DNA of 64,000 bases. Origin: a bacterium. Lineage in GTDB: Bacteria; Cyanobacteriota; Vampirovibrionia; Gastranaerophilales; UBA9971. Positions 7,089-37,163 of this stretch are shown here, in pieces. A program made the position numbers and the translations under genes. The number at the start of each line of letters is the position of its first letter. The stretch's first letter is position 1. The stretch is from positions 1-64,000 of the forward strand of contig JBAWVS010000004.1 in NCBI GenBank assembly GCA_037147175.1, read 5' to 3'. The notes under the pieces were generated by a model, which was not told the origin of the DNA, did not search any database, and saw only the letters and a list, made by a program, of their open reading frames with translations.

Positions 7089-8702
7089 CTATTTCTTTGT
7101 ATATCTATTAAATAAAGCGTTAGTTTTTTCGAATAATTCTTCTATTGGTATTGTATAATTTTCATCTTTTGTAGCATCTGTCATAACTTGATTGATTTTT
7201 TGATTATATTCAGGCGCGTTACTATTAATATCCATAAACTTTTGCGTTTTACCGTTCAAGGTGATTGCCTTTAGTTCTGAGTTATACTTAAGGTTTTTCA
7301 CTGACTTAACAACTAATGTTTGTCCATTGGGTCCTTTTATTTCAATTGCGTTTAGAGGCTGCCCCTGCCAAATCGATTTGGATATTTTTATTGTACCTTT
7401 AGGCTGTTTTATATAAGTAGCCGTTATATCGCCACTGCTGTTAAACTCAATTCTTCTAATAGGCTCTGTTTTGGCAGCATCAGCATATATAGTCTTTGAA
7501 GCTATTTGTCCATTAGCATGCGTCGTTTCTATAACATTTGGTTCTACTGGCGCTATCGGCTTGGCTGGTGCTGATGGTTGCACAGGTGCTGGAGGTTCGA
7601 CTGGAGCATTTGTTGTTTGCGCTTTGGGCGGAGTCAATAGTTTTTGCGCTTTAGGCGAGGGTAATAGTTTTTGTGTCGTTACCGGATTTGATGATACTTC
7701 CGTATATTCTGTAAACTCTCCTACGGGTGAACCGGAAGTTTTTCCTGCCATTTTTAAGCCTGCTTTAGCGCCTAATAAGGATAATGCTATCCCTGTAGTT
7801 CCTGAACCCATTTCACTATAAGCGTTTTTGGCTTCGTTATCCGTTTTTGCATTATTTGCTTTCATTACTCCTTTAACAAGTTGAGTTGCTCCTATTGCTG
7901 TTCCAACAACAGCTGCCCCTACAATTACGACAGGAGAAGCCACAACAGCTGCCGCTGTAGCGCCTAGAAAACCTGCTGCAGCAGCAGTAACAGCTGCAAC
8001 AGTACCAACTGTTGCAGCTGTTCTGCCAAGACTAAATCCTTTTTCATCACAAAACATTCCTTTAAAAAAGTTTCCAACGCCGCCAACAAATGCTTTTGCT
8101 TTTTCTCCAAAAGATATATTTCCATCATCTTTGCTGTCTGTTGTCTTTGCAGGCTTATTATCTGTAACAACTTTATTTACAACTTTTTCAGGTTTTGCAG
8201 GCAACGCAGCTGCGCTTGCGGCAGCTTCTGTTTGTTTGACTGTAGTTCCAAAAGGTTTTTTGCTGCCACTAGCCTCAACTGCCTTTGCTGATGCAGGGGT
8301 AGTTTTCCCTTCTGATTTTACTTCTGTGGGTTTCACAGCAGATTCTTTAACCGAATCCAAAAGTTTTTTCAAGTTAAATGATTTATCTGCAAACATTTTA
8401 CTCGTGTTATTTTGTTGGATTATTTTTTCGTTTTCAAGATAGGTTTGAAGTTTTTTATCGTCAATTTTTTCATTAGTCAATTTTTCTAAAGCTTGGTCAA
8501 GTTCTTCAAAAGTATACCCATTTTCAATTTTATATTCAAAATCATTGTCATTGATTCCTTTTTTCTGAGCATCTTTTTCTTTTTGTAAATTTTTAAAGAT
8601 AGCATCTTCTACGGTATTTGTTTTTTGCTCTTTGCGAAGATTAGCTCTTGTTTGCCCCCATGACAAACTTGAATCTTGTTTTTTTACACTTTCTAATGCC
8701 AT
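7089..8702 (-). CDS. Large low-complexity protein with an Ala/Gly/Val-rich hydrophobic core, hypothetical
   Basis: About 537 residues from ATG 8702, chosen because GGGGG lies 8 nt upstream; a GTG at 8717 is in frame but badly placed. The N-terminal 180 residues are charged and coiled-coil-like, then K/A/T-rich. Around residues 210-290 lies a long stretch of A, V and G with glycine-zipper spacing, which could span or insert into a membrane. A Pro/Ala/Val-rich repeat region (APVEP, APAKP, APVEP) and a globular-looking C-terminus follow, the latter with a segment like HANGQIASKTIYAD. No signal peptide. I recognise no family. The domain order recalls surface or effector-like proteins, but that is a guess. 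Confidence 0.7.
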   Translation of the reverse strand: MALESVKKQDSSLSWGQTRANLRKEQKTNTVEDAIFKNLQKEKDAQKKGINDNDFEYKIENGYTFEELDQALEKLTNEKIDDKKLQTYLENEKIIQQNNTSKMFADKSFNLKKLLDSVKESAVKPTEVKSEGKTTPASAKAVEASGSKKPFGTTVKQTEAAASAAALPAKPEKVVNKVVTDNKPAKTTDSKDDGNISFGEKAKAFVGGVGNFFKGMFCDEKGFSLGRTAATVGTVAAVTAAAAGFLGATAAAVVASPVVIVGAAVVGTAIGATQLVKGVMKANNAKTDNEAKNAYSEMGSGTTGIALSLLGAKAGLKMAGKTSGSPVGEFTEYTEVSSNPVTTQKLLPSPKAQKLLTPPKAQTTNAPVEPPAPVQPSAPAKPIAPVEPNVIETTHANGQIASKTIYADAAKTEPIRRIEFNSSGDITATYIKQPKGTIKISKSIWQGQPLNAIEIKGPNGQTLVVKSVKNLKYNSELKAITLNGKTQKFMDINSNAPEYNQKINQVMTDATKDENYTIPIEELFEKTNALFNRYTKK

Positions 8703-8957
8703 TCCAAATTCCCCCACGTTCTCTTATTTTTTTATCTCTACCTCTTAAATATATAAAGTATAAAAATAATAAAAAATTGCCATGTTTTTTCTTTTTTATG
8801 CTCAATTATTAAGTTTTTTTAATAATCAACCAAATATTAAATTCAGAATTAAAATCATAATAATAATCTAAAAAAAGTATGACAATTATAAATTTTATTA
8901 ATATAATTAAATTTGTGCATGATTAAAGTTATGCAATAAAAAGAGGTATTATATAAA

Positions 8958-26988: not shown

Positions 26989-27029
26989 AAAAGATAAAAG
27001 GGTCTGCAATGCAGACCCTTTTATCTTTT
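26989..27029. terminator. Strong bidirectional terminator between prs and the CheW gene
   Basis: A perfect 19-bp stem (AAAAGATAAAAGGGTCTGC and its complement) with a 3-nt loop, flanked by A and T runs on either side. It serves both convergent genes. Confidence 0.95.
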
Positions 27030-27033
27030 TATT

Positions 27034-28146
27034 TTAAACAGCATCTTCTATGAATAATCTTTCATCTTCGAGGAATTTTTTCAGGTCAAAAACAGACATT
27101 ATCTTGTCATTAAAAATAATTTCCGCGGAAGTAAAATTATTTTTCTCATATTTACCATGCATATTATGACTTAATTTTTCATTCGGAATGTTTTCAATAC
27201 CAAAAATATCATCGACAAGTATTCCGATTTGCATATTTTCTGTTCTTATAACAATAATCTTTGTTTTTTCAGTTATATCGGCCTTTGGGATATTCAAAAA
27301 CTTTTTAATATCAACAATAGTGATAAAATCTCCCCTTAAATTTATGAGTCCGATAATAAAATCAGGAACACAAGGTACTTTTGTAAGGCTAACATGTTTT
27401 AACTTTGTTATTTCCTTAACAAATTTTAAATTTATGCAATAAATTTCTCCGTTTAAAGAAAACGAAATAAAATAATCTTCCTGATAATTTAAGCTGTCCG
27501 TTTCATTTCTTAACTCTTTTTGAAGTTTTAAAGCTCTTTTCGCAAATTTTTCAACAGAAAGTTTGTCTACAGCAAATTTACTTGCTATATCATTTTTTAT
27601 CTCTCCTGAATAAACTTTTTGCAAAAAATCATCATTTTCATAAACACTTGCTCTTCGTTCTTCACTAATTTCAGGATTTTCTATATTATTAATAACTTTA
27701 TCAAGGTCAAGAAAGGCGATAAGACCATTATCATCCTTATATACACCTGTTATAGTATGTTCTTTTGAAGCGTAGGGAAGCGGCTCAAGCAATTTTTTTT
27801 CAAACTGCATTACATCTTTTACAGAATCAATAATTATGCCGATTTTTTTATTATTAACATTTAAAATCAATACCTGACATTCTACGGAGTAAACTTTTCG
27901 GTGGAATCCAAGTATCATCGAAAGATCTATTACACTGACTACAGTTCCTCGCAAGTTCAAAAGTCCAACAATATACTCAGGAGCTTTTTCCAGAAGAGTT
28001 AAAGCAGGAAGCTGGACAATTTCAATAATTTTTTCCGCCTGAATCGCATAAACTTTTTCCAGAAGATTAAAAGTAATATACAATTCAGATGTTTTATTTT
28101 CCGTAAAATCACTTAGTGCAATAAGATTCTGTTCCATTAAATTCAA
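27034..28146 (-). CDS. Protein with two CheW domains
   Basis: CheW adaptors connect chemoreceptors to the CheA kinase. This 370-residue protein has two CheW units: residues about 18-155 (YITFNLLEKVYAIQ ... IVGLLNLRGTVVSVIDL) and about 220-365 (YFISFSLNGEIYCIN ... IIGLINLRGDFITIVDI). A linker of about 60 residues separates them. Two fused adaptors could bridge neighbouring signalling complexes. It lies 12 bp after the REC-GGDEF gene on the same strand, so the two are probably made together. The receptor and kinase genes are divergent, starting at 29963. Confidence 0.93.
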   Translation of the reverse strand: MNLMEQNLIALSDFTENKTSELYITFNLLEKVYAIQAEKIIEIVQLPALTLLEKAPEYIVGLLNLRGTVVSVIDLSMILGFHRKVYSVECQVLILNVNNKKIGIIIDSVKDVMQFEKKLLEPLPYASKEHTITGVYKDDNGLIAFLDLDKVINNIENPEISEERRASVYENDDFLQKVYSGEIKNDIASKFAVDKLSVEKFAKRALKLQKELRNETDSLNYQEDYFISFSLNGEIYCINLKFVKEITKLKHVSLTKVPCVPDFIIGLINLRGDFITIVDIKKFLNIPKADITEKTKIIVIRTENMQIGILVDDIFGIENIPNEKLSHNMHGKYEKNNFTSAEIIFNDKIMSVFDLKKFLEDERLFIEDAV

Positions 28147-28158
28147 TAAATCCTTTAT

Positions 28159-29631
28159 TTAATCTTGATATATTGTGGTTTGGTTTCTACCATTTTTTTT
28201 AGATTGATATAGTGCTTTATCAGCTCTTAAAATCAAATCCTCATAAGTACTTACATCTGGTTCTATTGATGCCAGTCCACAGCTTACGGTAACCTGAACA
28301 GGTTTTTCTCCGCAAGTAAAGCCATGTTCTTGTATTTTAATTCTTATTCTTTCAATAGGAATCATTGTTTGACCAATTGGCGTTTCCGGAAGAATAAGAA
28401 CTAGTTCTTCTCCTCCATATCTCGCTACATAATCGGTTTTTCTTAATGAATTTCTTATAATTTTTGAAATTTCTGCAATAACTTTATCACCAAACTGGTG
28501 TCCATAAGTATCATTAATGCTTTTAAAGTGATCTATGTCAAAAAAAGCTAAGCTGAGAGGATTTTTGTATCTTTTACTTCTTGCAAATTCCTTGTCAAGC
28601 ATTTGCTGGAAGTATCTTCTATTATAGAGTCCTGTCAAGCCATCAGTTATAGCCAGATATTTTGTTTCCGAATAAAGCCATTTAATTCTCATCAATATTT
28701 TTAATTCCTGAAGAATTATTTCCAGTACTCTTGAACAATCAAATCTGGCATTTCTTTTATGATACAAAGCAATACCACCAATAACTTTATTCGCATAAGT
28801 TATTGGAATAATTATTTTAGACTTTAAAACACTTAAACCTTCCACCAGTTCAGGTGTTTTAGTATGATTATCAACTATTTCATAATCATAAAGACTTTCT
28901 TCCTGATAATAGTCCTCTCCAAAACATGATAGAAAAAAAGCCTGTTTAAAGTCTTTGAAATCTTTATCATCAAGGACAATCCCCTGAAGACTCACATTAA
29001 TTGTTTTCTTTTTCTTGTCGTCTCTTTCATTAAAAAAAATGGCTGCTGCATTAAAATCAATCAATGAAAATATAAGAGAAAAAATTTCATTTGAAAGGAT
29101 TTTGGTGGCATAAATAAATTCAGAAAGATTTCGAAACTCGTTTATAATGGTAGATTCAATAAGAGATTGGTCAAGAAGATTATTTATTCTTGTCTGAATA
29201 TTTTTATTTTCCAGCTTTTTTTCTTCAATAAATTGTTGGCGTTCTTCCTGCGAAATAGTTGAAGCATTTTCAAGAAAATTTCTCACATTATTCAGGAAAT
29301 CTTCGGGATTTTCGCTCTTTACTATAAAACTGTCGGCTCCTGCTTTTATTCCCCAGAAATTATCCAATTTTTCATTGAGCTGGGTAAGTAAAATTATTGG
29401 AATTCTTTTTAACAGGTCGTCATTTTTTAAAAGTCTGCAAAGCTGATAACCATTAATTTCAGGCATAATAATATCCGAAATAATCAAATCAGGAAACGTC
29501 TGATAAGCAATTTCTATTCCGTCTATTGCATTTTTAGCTGTTAATATTTCATGCCCGAGCTTAGAAAGAGTTAATTCAAGGCTCTTTAATTGTAGTTGGC
29601 TATCTTCTATTAATAGAATTTTCTTTTTCAT
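28159..29631 (-). CDS. Response regulator with REC, GAF-like and GGDEF domains (diguanylate cyclase)
   Basis: Residues 1-120 form a receiver with acidic pocket IED near 8-10 and phospho-acceptor D53 (LIISDIIMPEINGYQ). Residues about 150-320 look like a GAF-type domain. The GGDEF domain follows ITDGLTGLYNRRYF near 330 and ends with active-site GGEEL at 406-410; DIDHFK and NDTYGHQFGD are intact. The inhibitory site RKTD (397-400) lies the usual five residues before the active site, so product inhibition is expected. It should make c-di-GMP when phosphorylated, plausibly by the nearby CheA hybrid. Architecture resembles WspR, but with an added middle domain. Confidence 0.92.
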   Translation of the reverse strand: MKKKILLIEDSQLQLKSLELTLSKLGHEILTAKNAIDGIEIAYQTFPDLIISDIIMPEINGYQLCRLLKNDDLLKRIPIILLTQLNEKLDNFWGIKAGADSFIVKSENPEDFLNNVRNFLENASTISQEERQQFIEEKKLENKNIQTRINNLLDQSLIESTIINEFRNLSEFIYATKILSNEIFSLIFSLIDFNAAAIFFNERDDKKKKTINVSLQGIVLDDKDFKDFKQAFFLSCFGEDYYQEESLYDYEIVDNHTKTPELVEGLSVLKSKIIIPITYANKVIGGIALYHKRNARFDCSRVLEIILQELKILMRIKWLYSETKYLAITDGLTGLYNRRYFQQMLDKEFARSKRYKNPLSLAFFDIDHFKSINDTYGHQFGDKVIAEISKIIRNSLRKTDYVARYGGEELVLILPETPIGQTMIPIERIRIKIQEHGFTCGEKPVQVTVSCGLASIEPDVSTYEDLILRADKALYQSKKNGRNQTTIYQD

Positions 29632-29962
29632 AAATTTTTTATACCGGCACCTGTTTAAATTTGTAGTTTTTATTATTTATATTTAACTTTGCTGAGCCTG
29701 TTAATAAATTCAAAAACAAATCTTGATTTTATTCAATATAATTATACTATCAGTTATATCAAAAAACAGGAAGTGTTTAAATGATATTTACAGATTTTCA
29801 ATATTATTGTTGATTTACTCTCACTTTATATTTTATACTAAAATAAAATTTTACATGTTTTACTTGATTTAAATATCTATAAAAAAATGCTTAAAATAAA
29901 AAGATAGTGTACAATTAGGTTAGCCAAATAAAGAGTTACTTTAATAATAAAGAGGAAAAATA
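29632..29962. other. Divergent intergenic region of the chemosensory cluster
   Basis: 331 bp of very AT-rich DNA between the REC-GGDEF gene (minus) and the receptor gene (plus). It should hold both promoters. I see no convincing -35/-10 pair, GEMM-type riboswitch core or tRNA, only A/T tracts. Confidence 0.5.
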
Positions 29963-31060
29963 ATGTTTGAAAAATTAAATCTTAAAGAAAAAATTAAATT
30001 AAAATCTTTATTGAGCCAGAGCTCAATTTTGATAATAGCTTCTATAGCTCTAATAGCACTTTATAAAGTTCAAATTAATAATGAAAGCGCTCTTAACTGG
30101 GGAATAGCACTTCTTATTGTTACTGTTATCTTGATTTTATTTATAGAAATAATCCAAAAAACAATAAAAGACTCTCTGACAAACCCTATATACAGTGCTT
30201 TATTCCATACAGGGATTGTTTCAAATGAAATTAAAAAAGAAACAAACCAGCAAGAAAATTTTGTAAATAAACATCTACAGCTTTTAAAAACCACTGATCT
30301 TGTTTTAGCTAAATTGAAAAAATCTTCTCAAAAAACAAAAGAAAGTGCCATAAAAGTAGCTGATAAATCTCAAGAATCCCTTGATTTATCTGTAAAAGAG
30401 CAAAAAGCCGTTAAAAGTAATATTGAAAAAATGAACACTCTTAAACAAAAAATTGAAATTATTGCAGAACTAATTCTTGAATTAAGCGAACATACTCAAC
30501 AAATAGGAAGCATCGTAGGCGTTGTAGAAGATATTACGGAGCAAACAAATATGCTTGCTCTCAATGCGGCTGTTGAAGCAGCTAGAGCCGGAGAACACGG
30601 AAAAGGTTTTGCGGTAGTTGCAAGCGAAATCAGAAAACTCGCAGATGAAAGCAAACAAGCAACTACTAAAATTACTTCACTTATTTATGATATCCAACAG
30701 GCGACAAATTCTACTGTTATGGCAACTGAAGAAGGAACCAAAGAAATTGAATCCGGTGTGGATCTCGCCCATCAAATAGCGCAAAATATTGATTTATTAA
30801 GAAACACCATCAACGAAACTGTTCATGCTGTTGATAATATTGTTAAAGATGCAGATCAACAAATAGAATGCACCGGTGATGTCTACAATTCAATAACCCA
30901 AATTGACAAAGGGCTTCTTGAATCTGAAGCAAGTATAAAACAAAATCTTATATCCATCAGTGGACTTATAGAAGTATCAAAAACATTAAAAGAAAATGTT
31001 ATGGGCGCTTCTGATGTCAATACAAATGACAGTTTTAAAAGCAGAGAATACCCGAATTAA
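29963..31060 (+). CDS. Methyl-accepting chemotaxis protein without a periplasmic sensor
   Basis: Two hydrophobic helices (about residues 19-35 and 42-61) are joined by only a handful of residues, so there is no extracytoplasmic ligand domain, and no clear HAMP domain follows. Residues 100-340 form a long coiled coil with the receptor tip: [38 protein letters not shown] and KLADES. This tip binds CheA and CheW. Such a receptor could sense membrane state, a cytoplasmic cue or another protein. The CheA hybrid gene follows 60 bp downstream. Confidence 0.93.
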
Positions 31061-31120
31061 ATTTATAACCGGCTGAAATATTAATCTAAAAAGAGCTAAT
31101 CTACATAAAAGGTATCTTAA

Positions 31121-34100
31121 ATGGACTTCCTCGAAAGCGAAATCGAAGAAATTCTGAATATATTCAGAGAAGAAAGCGATGAGCAAATTCAAAAACTTAA
31201 TAAAAATCTTTTAAAACTTGAAGCTAACCCAAAAGACAGTACGGCAATTTCTGAACTTTTTAGAGAAGCTCATTCGTTAAAAGGCGCATCAAGGATGATC
31301 GGATTAAACGATATCCAAAATATAGCTCATAAACTTGAAGATGTTTTTGGGATGGCAAAAGAAAACCAACTTGTTGTAACTTCGGAAATAGTTGATGTTC
31401 TTTGCAAAGCGGTAGATTGTATAAGCTCAATAGTTGAAGAATCAATCAAAACAAGGGGTCAATCATCATTTGATCAAGTTCCGGATATGATAAAACTGCT
31501 TGAAACTATAATAAATCAAGAATCTTCTGAAACATCTGTCCAAAATAATATTTCTTTCAAAGAAAATTTCTATTCAAACAAACCTCCTTCCCTTCATGAA
31601 TCTTTACCCATGAAAAAACCTGCTTATGTTGATATTAAAAAATTGGGAAAAGAAAACAAAACTCTTATAATTCAAATAAAAGTTAATATAGAAAAAATTA
31701 AAGTGTTTTCTTCAAGCTCTGACGCTATAGAAGAACTGCTTCATTTTATTATACGTCTTGATTCAGTAATAAAAACAATTAATAACCCGAGAATAAACGG
31801 AATCATTGAAGAAATAAAAATTAAACTTGAAGCAGCACTTAAAGGTAGAGGTATTTTAAATTCTGATGAAGTTTTGGAAATTGAAGAAAATTTTGAAACA
31901 TTTTCTTCTTTGTTTGAAAGATTGACTACAGGCCTTGAAAATAATGAATCTTACACTCAGACTGAATCAAAAAGCACTGATATTATTGACGGTAATTTGC
32001 AAATAAAACAAGAATCCAAAAAAGAAGAAGATAATACTTTTATTTTAGATGGAAGTATTGATGAAGAGTTAAAAACTGATATTTTAAATGCAAGCTCTAA
32101 AAATCAATCTCTGAATGAAGATCTAAAATTCATAAAAAAGAATATAGCTGTTTTTTCTGTTCATTCACAAGAAAATTTATTGAAATTTGACGAAGTAATT
32201 AATAAATTAAACAATTTTATAAACAAAATCGAAAATGAAAACATAAGAAATATCATTGAGAAAATTACAGAATTACTTACTTATTCAAAAGAAAAAAATA
32301 TTCCGATAAATAATGATGTTATTGAAATAATAAAAGAAAGTTTTGAAACATCAATTTTAATGGATAATTCTCCTTTTGAAACAGAGGAAAATCCTGTTTT
32401 GATGCTTCAACGGATATCTGTTCTTCTCCAAATGATTAAATTATCAGCCCCTTCAAATCAACTGTCTGCTACCGAAGAAGAATCAAACGAAGAAACTTCA
32501 TCTTACGAAGCAATCTCAAACAGAGCTAACTCTATTTCACAAAAATTATCTACTGCAAACACAGGTACGGAAATTTTATCTAAAAATACGCTCATGGCAG
32601 AAAATGATAACTCTTCCTACGAAATAAAGCCCGGAGACAGTAATACCATAAAAACTCTCAGGGTCGACACAAAAAAACTTGACCAGCTTGTAAATCAGGT
32701 TGGAGAATTAATTATTGCTAAAATTAAAGCAAAAGAACATTTATCCGAATTGGCTAAGATGATTCAATCCGTTGAAGAATGGCACAGGGAATGGAACAAA
32801 ACAAAACAATATTTCAAGCATCAAGATAAACTTCATTATAGATCTGCTGACTTGCCTGCAGGGTCATCCGTTTATTCCCAAAATAAAAATCTTCACGTAT
32901 TTTTTGAGGAAAATTCTTCTAAACTTACCGGTTTAACGAATAAAATGAACTACCTTTATAAAATTATTCAGGAAGATGATACAAGACTTGATTTAATAGT
33001 AAATGAACTTGAAGAAAGAATAAAAAGCGTAAGGGTTTTGCCTCTTGCAACAATTTTTCATATGTTTCCCAGAATGGTTAGGGATATATCCCGAGAAAAA
33101 AATAAAAATATCGAGTTTGTAATTTCCGGCAGTGAAACAAGTGTTGATAAAAAAATAATTGAGGAAATTAAATCCCCACTAATTCATTTAATACGAAATT
33201 CTATAGACCATGGAATAGAAGACTCTGAAACAAGGATTAAAAATGGGAAAAATCCGGTCGGAAAGATTTTTCTTGCAGCTTATCACCTTGAAAATAGCGT
33301 TCTGATTGAAATAATTGACGATGGGCATGGCATTAATATCGAAGCAATTAAAAGAAAAGTTCTTCAAAAACAGTTGCTATCTCAAGAAGAATTAGATTCT
33401 ATGACAGAAGAACAAATTATGAACATAATCTTCTGGTCTGGATTTTCAACAGGAGAAACGATTACAGACATTTCGGGACGAGGAATCGGTCTTGACATAG
33501 TTTATACAAAAATTTCCCAGCTTAACGGAAAAGTTAAAATAAAATCAACTTTAGGAGAAGGCTGCAGAGTTTCAATACAACTTCCTGTTACAATGGCGAC
33601 CATCAAGTCTTTCCTCGTTGAAATTAATCATCAAAAATTTGCCATTCCGACAAGTACTATCAAAACAACCCTTCTTATTTCTCCTGAAAGTATTTTTTAC
33701 AAAGAAGGAAAGCAAACAATTATTGTTGAAAATACAACAGTGCCGATTTGTAACCTTTCTGATGCACTTGATTTGCCTGAAAGCAGGAAAAAAAATAAGA
33801 AGCTTGTAGTAATTGTAGTCCAGTCAGAAGATATTCAAGTTGGGTTTATAGTAGACAAACTTATAGGCGATCAGGAAATTCTCCACAAAAACCTTTCTCC
33901 TCCTTTATTAAGAGTAAGAAATATTGCAGGAGTTACAACATTAGGTTCCGGTGAGCTTTGTCTTATTTTAAATATCGGAGATCTTGTAAAATCTGCTTAT
34001 TCAACATTCGGAATGGTAGAAAAAAGATTAGTTACCGAAAAAGTCCCTTTATCTAATGATTCAAGCGAAAAACATATACTTGTTGTTGATGATTCTTTAA

Positions 34101-34432
34101 CTACAAGAATCCTTGAAAGGAATATTCTTAAAGCAGCCGGCTATAATGTAACCGTAGCTGTTAACGGTCTTGAAGCCCTCACGAAAATAACCTCTGAAGA
34201 TTTTGACCTCGTCGTGACAGACGTTGAAATGCCTGAAATAAACGGCTTTGAACTTACAGAACGATTAAGATCGCAGGAAAAATTCAATAAAATACCTATA
34301 ATCCTTGTAACCTCTCTTGCTTCGGAAATTGATAAAAGAAAAGGCTTAAACTTTGGGGCAAATGCTTACCTTACCAAAGGGAATTTCAATCAAGATGAAC
34401 TGCTTGTAACAATCAGGCAATTATTATCCTAA
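31121..34432 (+). CDS. CheA-type histidine kinase fused to a receiver domain
   Basis: 1103 residues. The N-terminal HPt domain carries the phospho-histidine H51 in FREAHSLKGASRMIG. Two similar segments follow (about residues 170-275 and 335-440), each with VFSxxS near its start and IIEEI or IIEKI helices, which look like a duplicated HPt-like bundle without an evident second histidine. From about residue 505 come the dimerisation domain (LRVDTKKLDQLVNQVGELII), the ATPase with HLIRNSIDHGIE and DISGRGIGLDIV, and a CheW-like domain. A receiver with phospho-acceptor D1034 (DLVVTDVEMPEINGF) ends the protein. Hybrid CheA-REC kinases are typical of Wsp, Pil-Chp and cyanobacterial taxis systems. AAAGGT lies 7 nt before the ATG. 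Confidence 0.95.
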   Translation: MDFLESEIEEILNIFREESDEQIQKLNKNLLKLEANPKDSTAISELFREAHSLKGASRMIGLNDIQNIAHKLEDVFGMAKENQLVVTSEIVDVLCKAVDCISSIVEESIKTRGQSSFDQVPDMIKLLETIINQESSETSVQNNISFKENFYSNKPPSLHESLPMKKPAYVDIKKLGKENKTLIIQIKVNIEKIKVFSSSSDAIEELLHFIIRLDSVIKTINNPRINGIIEEIKIKLEAALKGRGILNSDEVLEIEENFETFSSLFERLTTGLENNESYTQTESKSTDIIDGNLQIKQESKKEEDNTFILDGSIDEELKTDILNASSKNQSLNEDLKFIKKNIAVFSVHSQENLLKFDEVINKLNNFINKIENENIRNIIEKITELLTYSKEKNIPINNDVIEIIKESFETSILMDNSPFETEENPVLMLQRISVLLQMIKLSAPSNQLSATEEESNEETSSYEAISNRANSISQKLSTANTGTEILSKNTLMAENDNSSYEIKPGDSNTIKTLRVDTKKLDQLVNQVGELIIAKIKAKEHLSELAKMIQSVEEWHREWNKTKQYFKHQDKLHYRSADLPAGSSVYSQNKNLHVFFEENSSKLTGLTNKMNYLYKIIQEDDTRLDLIVNELEERIKSVRVLPLATIFHMFPRMVRDISREKNKNIEFVISGSETSVDKKIIEEIKSPLIHLIRNSIDHGIEDSETRIKNGKNPVGKIFLAAYHLENSVLIEIIDDGHGINIEAIKRKVLQKQLLSQEELDSMTEEQIMNIIFWSGFSTGETITDISGRGIGLDIVYTKISQLNGKVKIKSTLGEGCRVSIQLPVTMATIKSFLVEINHQKFAIPTSTIKTTLLISPESIFYKEGKQTIIVENTTVPICNLSDALDLPESRKKNKKLVVIVVQSEDIQVGFIVDKLIGDQEILHKNLSPPLLRVRNIAGVTTLGSGELCLILNIGDLVKSAYSTFGMVEKRLVTEKVPLSNDSSEKHILVVDDSLTTRILERNILKAAGYNVTVAVNGLEALTKITSEDFDLVVTDVEMPEINGFELTERLRSQEKFNKIPIILVTSLASEIDKRKGLNFGANAYLTKGNFNQDELLVTIRQLLS

Positions 34433-34444
34433 AATTATAAAAAA

Positions 34445-35509
34445 TTACTGATTTTGCCTCATATACGAGTCATAAGTGATTTTTGACGCGTTTATTATAA
34501 ACTCTTTCGCGGCAAAAGAATTCCACGGACGTTTTACCATTATTACAATTATGTATTTTCTACCGTCAGGAAGTGCTACAACTCCTGCATCTCCGAGCAT
34601 TCTTCCTATATCACCTGTTTTGTGAATAAATCCTGCATCAGCACCCAGTCCAGCCTGAATTAAACGATTATTTCTCACATGGCTCATAATATCTACAATT
34701 TCAACTCGTGTTTTTAGTGAAAGCAAATTTGTGTTTCCAATGTTATAAAGTAAAGTTCCCAGCTCTTTCGGAGTTGAAACATTTGTTCCGTCAAGATCAG
34801 GGAGCCAGTTTGACAGGCTTGTTACTTTCAGTCCCCATCTTTTAATTTCTCGGTCAAGTTCGTTCATTCCTCCTACTGAAGATAAAAGCATATTAGTAGC
34901 TGTATTATCGCTTTCTTGAATCATCAAGCCGGCAAGCTGCCTATAAGTATGTCTGGTTCCTAAAGGAGAATATTGTAAATAACCTGATCCGCCTGATACA
35001 TAACAATTTGTCAGACTTATTTTGTCATTTAAGTTAATTAAACCCTTTTCAGCTCTTCTGAACAGCTGAAACATAACAGGTAATTTTATTATACTGGCTG
35101 TCGGGAAAACTCCGTCCCCATTAATATCTACATATCTTCCCGTATTGTAATCCCATACAAAAATCCCTGCCTTTAGCTGCGGGTATCCTGCAGAAAGATA
35201 TTTAAGACGATTTGTAAGGTTATACATTTTTCCGCTAAATACAGGTGTCTTCATTAACGAATTTTTAGTGTTGATTTCGTCTAAAAACTTTGTATCAAGA
35301 AAATCCCCGTTATTTGCTATCGCAGATTCAGCCTGATTCAGATAAGAAATATTTTTTGGGATTTGTATATTTTGATTAGTCAATTTATTAAAAAAGAGAT
35401 TATTATAATTTTCAATAAATATTTTTGGTAAGACCATACTAAATACAACAAAAAATATAACTAAAAATCTTATTCTTTCAGATTGTTGTTTTTTTATATT
35501 TTTTCTCAT
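34445..35509 (-). CDS. Beta-lactamase class A-like serine hydrolase, membrane anchored
   Basis: From ATG 35509 the protein has 354 residues with one N-terminal hydrophobic helix (about 14-30), so it is exported or anchored. The penicillin-recognising motifs are present: S139-x-x-K142 (TASIIK), S200-D-N and K297-T-G (HKTGD). The omega-loop position that holds Glu166 in true class A enzymes reads LPDLDG, giving aspartate near 238. It may be a beta-lactamase, a peptidoglycan-acting relative or a weak enzyme. The frame stays open to an ATG at 35686, but the added N-terminus is polar, lacks a ribosome site and would bury the export signal; a TTG behind GGGAG near 35645 is another option. Confidence 0.82.
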   Translation of the reverse strand: MRKNIKKQQSERIRFLVIFFVVFSMVLPKIFIENYNNLFFNKLTNQNIQIPKNISYLNQAESAIANNGDFLDTKFLDEINTKNSLMKTPVFSGKMYNLTNRLKYLSAGYPQLKAGIFVWDYNTGRYVDINGDGVFPTASIIKLPVMFQLFRRAEKGLINLNDKISLTNCYVSGGSGYLQYSPLGTRHTYRQLAGLMIQESDNTATNMLLSSVGGMNELDREIKRWGLKVTSLSNWLPDLDGTNVSTPKELGTLLYNIGNTNLLSLKTRVEIVDIMSHVRNNRLIQAGLGADAGFIHKTGDIGRMLGDAGVVALPDGRKYIIVIMVKRPWNSFAAKEFIINASKITYDSYMRQNQ

Positions 35510-35805
35510 TTCGGATCTCTGCAAAGAACTGTTACATGCTTCTTCAAGATGTTTTTTATTTATTATTCTATTATTTTTTATTTGGTCATTTCGGGACTCA
35601 TTCCCGCCTATCGATTGTTTCAGTTCGCCTGATTTATGTAAAGCCAAGATACAACTCTCCCGCTTCGCTATATTCAACAAACACACATAATAAATAAAAT
35701 AATACTACAATCTGTTAAAAAAGATGAGAAAAGATACATTTCTTAAAATAAATACTTTACTTATTTGATACAAAAATTTAAAAACCATTTAAAATAAAAG
35801 GTATT
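35510..35805. other. Intergenic region between divergent genes
   Basis: About 296 bp. It contains an open extension of the upstream frame and, near 35590-35615, a short palindromic GC patch (CGGGACTCATTCCCG) unlike the AT-rich surroundings, which may be a decayed repeat. Confidence 0.4.
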
Positions 35806-36186: not shown

Positions 36187-36287
36187 AAAATAAAAGCTTT
36201 ATAAATTTATAAAAATTTATTAAAATAATAATAATCGGAATTAAAATGTAAAATTTAGAAAGAGAAGAATAAACAGGCGGTGTGAAA

Positions 36288-37163
36288 ATGAAAAACATTA
36301 TAATCTACAATTCTGAAGGAAAATCAAAACTCGAATCACAGCTTTTAAAAGGCTTTGATTACTCTGTAATCGCTAAAAAAATTGATGAGATTAAACAGGC
36401 AGAATCATTAAGCCCTGACTTAATCATACTGGAAGGAAAACAGGAAGTTATAGAAGACGTTCTCGTAAGAAATAAAATTTCGGTGCCTTTGCTTATAGCA
36501 ACTGATAAAGTGCTTGAAATTATGGTCAGGGCAGAAGCCTTTGATTATATTTTAAATCCTGTAGATAATACTGAATTAATGATACGTGTTGCAAATATGC
36601 TTAAAATCAAAGAGCTGAAAGATACAATTAAAACAGTTTCAACTACAGACGAATTAACGGGCTTATACAACAGAAGCTGCCTTCACCAAAGGTTGGAAGA
36701 AGAATTATCAAGGGCAAAACGTTATAATTTACCTTTATCCACTATTTTGCTGGATATTGACTTCTTTAAAGTCGTAAATGATATCTATGGCTATGCATGG
36801 GGTGATGTGCTTCTTAAACAAATCACTGAAATACTTAAACGCAGAGCCAGAAAAGAAGATGTACTTACAAGATACGGCGATGAAGAGTTTATCCTTGTTC
36901 TTCCTAACACAACAGAAGAAAATGCCTATATTTTTGCGGAAAGAATCAGAAAAGACATAGAAGAAATGGAATTTATTCCTGAAGGAGAAGAAGAAAAGCA
37001 TCCTGTTACTGTAAGCAGCGGCATTTCCAGCTATCCTTTCCTTTCTGCGATTGATGAAACAGCAGATACAATTATCAGATACTCAGAGCATGCTCTTTAC
37101 GCAGCCAAAAAAAGAGGCAAAAATCAGGTTGTACTTTTCTCCCAGATGAATCTTGAAATTTAA
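36288..37163 (+). CDS. Degenerate receiver-GGDEF protein with an intact I-site
   Basis: About 291 residues from ATG 36288 (GGCGG is well spaced; a GTG at 36282 is in frame). The first 105 residues look like a receiver, but the acceptor position in DLIILEGKQ is E49, so it is probably not phosphorylated. The GGDEF domain begins TTDELTGLYNRSCL. Its active-site loop reads G-D-E-E-F (197-201) instead of GG[DE]EF, with Asp replacing the second glycine, and NDIYGYAWGD has Tyr for the usual His. The inhibitory motif RKED (188-191) is intact at the right distance. By analogy with known degenerate GGDEF receptors it may bind c-di-GMP rather than make it. Confidence 0.88.
   Translation: MKNIIIYNSEGKSKLESQLLKGFDYSVIAKKIDEIKQAESLSPDLIILEGKQEVIEDVLVRNKISVPLLIATDKVLEIMVRAEAFDYILNPVDNTELMIRVANMLKIKELKDTIKTVSTTDELTGLYNRSCLHQRLEEELSRAKRYNLPLSTILLDIDFFKVVNDIYGYAWGDVLLKQITEILKRRARKEDVLTRYGDEEFILVLPNTTEENAYIFAERIRKDIEEMEFIPEGEEEKHPVTVSSGISSYPFLSAIDETADTIIRYSEHALYAAKKRGKNQVVLFSQMNLEI

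Follow-up and report, generated by a model that had tools for sequence, protein, structure and literature searches.

The window, a stretch of 64,000 nucleotides, lies on contig C4 of a metagenome-assembled genome (2.66 Mb, 99% complete, 109 contigs) of the order Gastranaerophilales. At 27034-34432 it holds four chemosensory genes arranged as two divergent pairs, with within-pair gaps of 12 and 60 bp (Table 1), and Pfam confirmed genes, domains and layout as given in the initial annotation, with exact coordinates. The general hallmarks of a chemosensory system, an MCP hairpin, CheW and a CheA with Hpt and kinase core, are all present by Pfam; the module includes neither a CheY gene nor other genes for single-domain REC proteins, and its CheA shows just one Hpt domain. 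No convincing sigma-28 promoter motif was found in the divergent intergenic region, where one loose match is common to two sister genomes, and an Rfam scan of the window returned no match.

Table 1. Features of the module and its borders in the window
Feature	Position	Strand	Evidence
Double CheW coupling protein	27034..28146	-	Pfam PF01584, 206 bits, 2 stretches
CheW domains of the double CheW protein	27682-28080 and 27061-27471	-	Pfam
Response-regulator diguanylate cyclase, REC-GAF-GGDEF	28159..29631	-	Pfam; GAF via AlphaFold and Foldseek; residue conservation
Cyclase domains	REC ~29284-29619; GAF-like ~28648-29199; GGDEF ~28180-28653	-	
Divergent intergenic region, 331 bp, 20% GC, expected site of both promoters	29632..29962		
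Chemoreceptor, 2 TM helices, without ligand-binding domain, HAMP or methylation motif	29963..31060	+	
Receptor signalling domain (MCPsignal)	30362-30910	+	Pfam
Hybrid CheA: Hpt (H51), dimerisation, ATPase (HATPase_c), CheW, C-terminal REC (D1034)	31121..34432	+	Pfam; residue conservation
Terminator-like hairpin, 19 pairs, between a prs-like gene and the module's convergent end	26989..27029	+	

Many relatives have a small gene, about 200 aa long, directly 3' of cheA; the three that were scanned are HD / Ppx-GppA_III-like. It is absent in the window, where a beta-lactamase2-family protein (34445-35686, minus strand) takes its place. Next to the module, another GGDEF protein (36282-37163, plus strand) has no REC in its N-terminal part by Pfam and carries the signature GDEEF instead of GG(D/E)EF, and it may be weakened. 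Elsewhere in the window, an ORF of 542 aa (7089-8717, minus strand) had no Pfam match.

In the cyclase, Pfam recognized REC (73 bits) and GGDEF (168 bits), and the middle domain had no Pfam match. Considering that the full model in Foldseek mostly retrieved matches to REC and GGDEF, the middle domain was folded alone. For the AlphaFold model of residues 126-329 (pLDDT 83, pTM 0.77), the top PDB matches were to structures of the GAF and phytochrome GAF type, with a best E of 1.2e-3 at a probability of ~1.0, and the GAF-like domain suspected in the initial annotation is supported by this predicted structure. D53, GGEE and the I-site RxxD of the cyclase are invariant in 24 of 24 orthologs, as are H51 and D1034 of CheA in all 26. 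With acceptor, active-site and I-site residues kept, the earlier proposal of an intact diguanylate cyclase as the likely output appears well founded.

The receptor, for its part, yielded a single Pfam match, to MCPsignal (137 bits), and its sequence in the window shows two hydrophobic helices (residues ~15-33 and ~46-64) joined by a ~12-aa loop; neither a HAMP nor a ligand domain was detected by Pfam, in this protein or in ten scanned orthologs. A full methylation motif is found in none of 28 module receptors, and near-motifs stand at shuffle level (0.64 per protein vs 0.53 shuffled); the other receptors of the same genome carry the motif in nine of ten cases, with 5.5 near-motifs per protein vs 0.98 shuffled. 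Furthermore, no CheR-family match was obtained in the module-bearing genomes G005, G015, G019, G020, G022, G023, G181, G182, G191, G192 and G210, among which G015, G020 and the five of family f2 (G181, G182, G191, G192, G210) are 99% complete. Some genomes of f2 and f6 gave CheR-family matches of ~27-100 bits, which may represent other methyltransferases. Since the motif is missing in all 28 receptors, near-motifs are at shuffle level and some hosts are CheR-free, the module receptor is very probably not methylation-controlled as judged from sequence, and the absence of methylation-based adaptation anticipated in the initial annotation is thus supported for this receptor.

The accompanying statement that there is no CheR or CheB holds at the locus and fails for the genome. 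The search for cheR, cheB and cheY that had been suggested recovered two cheR and two cheB genes, all on contigs C29 and C40 and none on the contig of the window, together with a CheY/CheX cluster. The C29 cluster encodes CheB, CheD, CheY, CheR, MCP, CheW, CheA, CheY, CheX and CheY, and C40 carries a flagellar switch operon of motA, motB, fliL, fliM, fliY, cheB and cheR, in which FliM keeps its CheY-docking motif (LSQNDIDKLL) and FliY is CheC-like. A distant cheR/cheB pair with a CheY-motor pathway, which had been named as evidence against the reading, is hence present in the genome, without implying that the module receptor uses it. Four PilZ proteins were also found in this genome, the only one searched for them; three match the PilZNR (YcgR) N-domain, two above the cut-off and one slightly under, and one protein falls under the cut-off for PilZ itself. 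Apart from these, the genome holds a third CheA (L082 on C2, 3969-7929) with CheW, an HDOD protein and CheD, as well as three similar MCP-CheW pairs on separate contigs (L079, L080 and L081 on C55, C72 and C77) with near-identical methylation motifs, which may reflect recent expansion.

Among named genomes, Candidatus Melainabacteria bacterium GWA2_34_9 and Cyanobacteria bacterium UBA9971 are the closest. CheA orthologs, full or partial, are present in families f1 and f3-f7 of the order, and the module also in f2, presumably a gut family judging from the names of the nearest genomes, family size and gene loss. Because the divergent four-gene layout recurs in six families, f1-f3 and f5-f7, the arrangement is not due to chance; it was found in G001, G002, G004, G008, G011, G013, G015, G017, G019, G022 and G025, and within f2 in G179, G181, G182, G189, G191, G192, G198, G201, G207 and G210. 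Wherever orthologs were scanned for the double CheW, it is double too. The module is widespread in Gastranaerophilales and probably ancestral to the order.

Other arrangements exist. G003, G006 and G007 have other genes upstream of mcp-cheA and a cyclase that is not adjacent; G014 has its cyclase and double CheW together at another locus (L142), apart from mcp-cheA. In G023 (82% complete) the cyclase is directly divergent to cheA with the receptor gene absent between them (L075, 1-4091), and the genome yielded no MCP. In class families f9 and f15, relatives of the cyclase do not adjoin chemosensory genes. In G007, a fliL-fliM-fliY-cheB-cheR operon lies directly upstream of the module's mcp-cheA (L064, 7101-16284), suggesting a link of the module to the CheY/CheB world. 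The C40 operon is its ortholog, without the module, and the G007 cheR and cheB are 80% and 71% identical to the C40 pair. Prompted by G007, we considered the C40 cheB-cheR as a displaced adaptation pair of the module and retain this as a rival idea only, as the pair sits in a flagellar switch operon and a CheR of this type was not found in f6 and f7, which both keep the module.

In f2, the module tracks flagella: FliM occurs in 10 of 11 genomes with the module and in none of 38 without it (Fisher p ~1e-9, a value that overstates independence, as few evolutionary events may lie behind these losses). Outside f2, nearly all genomes with the module have FliM, the exception being G022 (87% complete); conversely, G009 (89% complete) has FliM and no module CheA. 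This co-occurrence points to flagellar control, not just biofilm or surface sensing. The N-terminal CheY-docking motif of FliM (LSQxEIDxLL) is kept in 18 of 18 genomes from families f1 and f3-f6, against 0 of 13 from f2 and f7. In the latter families FliY resembles that of our genome in the FliN part only, the CheC part being lost, while flagella are retained. Moreover, no MCP other than the module receptor was found in any of the 11 f2 genomes that carry the module, nor in G005, G014, G015, G019, G020, G022 and G025, with G015 and G020 representing f7; f6 is intermediate, with a single MCP and the docking motif kept. We regard this pattern in f2 and f7, a sole MCP together with eroded FliM and FliY, as the main new result. 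Read in the most direct way, the motor has lost its CheY input and the module would act via c-di-GMP. Alternatively, these flagella may run without switching, the module serving another function that was lost along with flagella. Our genome and f6 keep the docking motif, and hence the module CheA may also feed CheY there.

Aggregated, we favor, with a probability of about 0.55, a methylation-independent chemosensory module that sets c-di-GMP, most likely for flagella-related behavior. The membrane-anchored receptor without ligand domain, bridged by the double CheW, would set the activity of the hybrid CheA, and the divergent REC-GAF-GGDEF cyclase would then receive phosphate on its REC, while the REC of CheA itself would serve as a phosphate sink or second acceptor. 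The phosphorylated cyclase would set, and presumably raise, c-di-GMP, and flagella-related behavior is the most likely target of this output, perhaps via effectors of the PilZ/YcgR type. More tentatively, at less than even odds, a single receptor array, producing c-di-GMP with no methylation adaptation, has taken over from the classical receptor-CheA-CheY-FliM route in the flagellated members of f2 and f7, leaving motor control to the second messenger alone. If true, a chemosensory array has dispensed with two textbook partners, methylation adaptation and CheY, hinting at how flagellated gut Gastranaerophilales control their flagella; gut types have been reported to lack chemotaxis genes (PMC3787301). 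The families that keep and those that lose the FliM docking motif provide a natural contrast that makes the question testable. We found no paper describing this module.

The module could instead be a flagellar chemotaxis variant, in which its CheA phosphorylates an unlinked CheY, as well as the CheB of C40, with the cyclase as a side branch. That FliM motif, CheC-like FliY and cheB-cheR share one operon in our genome, and that the orthologous G007 operon continues into the module's mcp-cheA, is congruent with such a role. However, the C29 cluster already includes a CheA, CheYs, CheX, CheR, CheB and CheD of its own, f2 and f7 keep the module despite losing the motif, and the module receptor lacks methylation motifs, making this variant unlikely. 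A Pil-Chp-like regulator of type IV pilus motility seems very improbable: hybrid CheA-REC proteins are common in the Tfp class (PMC10782961) and a Gastranaerophilales genome from a termite gut is reported to carry type IV pilus genes (PMC5877343), but the module has no single-domain REC genes, a lone Hpt domain in CheA, and co-occurs with FliM.

The module could also be a genuine Wsp-type system for surfaces or biofilms whose CheR and CheB have been lost. It has the core parts and the REC-GGDEF output of Wsp, here identified by Pfam and residue conservation, and its CheA is a CheA-REC hybrid, as is WspE of L173, a real Wsp-type cluster on the megaplasmid of C. metallidurans CH34 that encodes an MCP, a 548-aa CheR-like protein, CheA, CheB and REC-GGDEF. 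This origin is nevertheless quite improbable. In a CheA tree of 17 rows, module CheA forms a clade (100/100) set apart from L173 WspE and one Burkholderia CheA by a branch that is long and has full support (2.98 changes per column between clade and WspE); given the small sample with one certain WspE, whose row differs in composition, the tree argues against close kinship, not deep kinship. The receptor has no periplasmic domain, one fused CheW-CheW protein stands for two separate CheWs, the CheR-TPR (WspC) and CheB (WspF) that L173 has are both absent from the cluster, and the module tracks flagella in f2. Thus, the label Wsp-like in the initial annotation is apt for gene composition and not for kinship.

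With Wsp (WspA-F, WspR; ACF class), the module shares an array of receptor, CheW and CheA(REC) whose output is a REC-GGDEF protein; Wsp differs by WspC, WspF, two CheW genes, a longer receptor and a distant CheA, and the GAF-like cyclase domain is found here. CheR-TPR often accompanies ACF pathways whose regulators are GGDEF proteins, some of which contain GAF or PAS domains (PMC3447774). Compared with the Fla class, methylation-based receptor adaptation is missing (0 of 28 motifs; CheR-free hosts), and the FliM motif for CheY output is kept in our genome, f1 and f3-f6 and lost in f2 and f7. Helicobacter pylori performs flagellar chemotaxis without CheR and CheB, using a CheA-REC hybrid and CheY output to FliM. 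The hybrid and the missing methylation enzymes (for the module, at the locus) are shared, whereas a cyclase takes the place of the CheY-FliM output here, with the docking motif lost in f2 and f7. PleD, WspR and DgcR are likewise REC-controlled GGDEF proteins with active site and I-site, the module cyclase having an additional GAF-like domain between REC and GGDEF. Finally, CheY-like c-di-GMP binders regulate the flagellar motor (PMC5677366), sharing c-di-GMP as motor input, while the putative effectors here are PilZ/YcgR-like.
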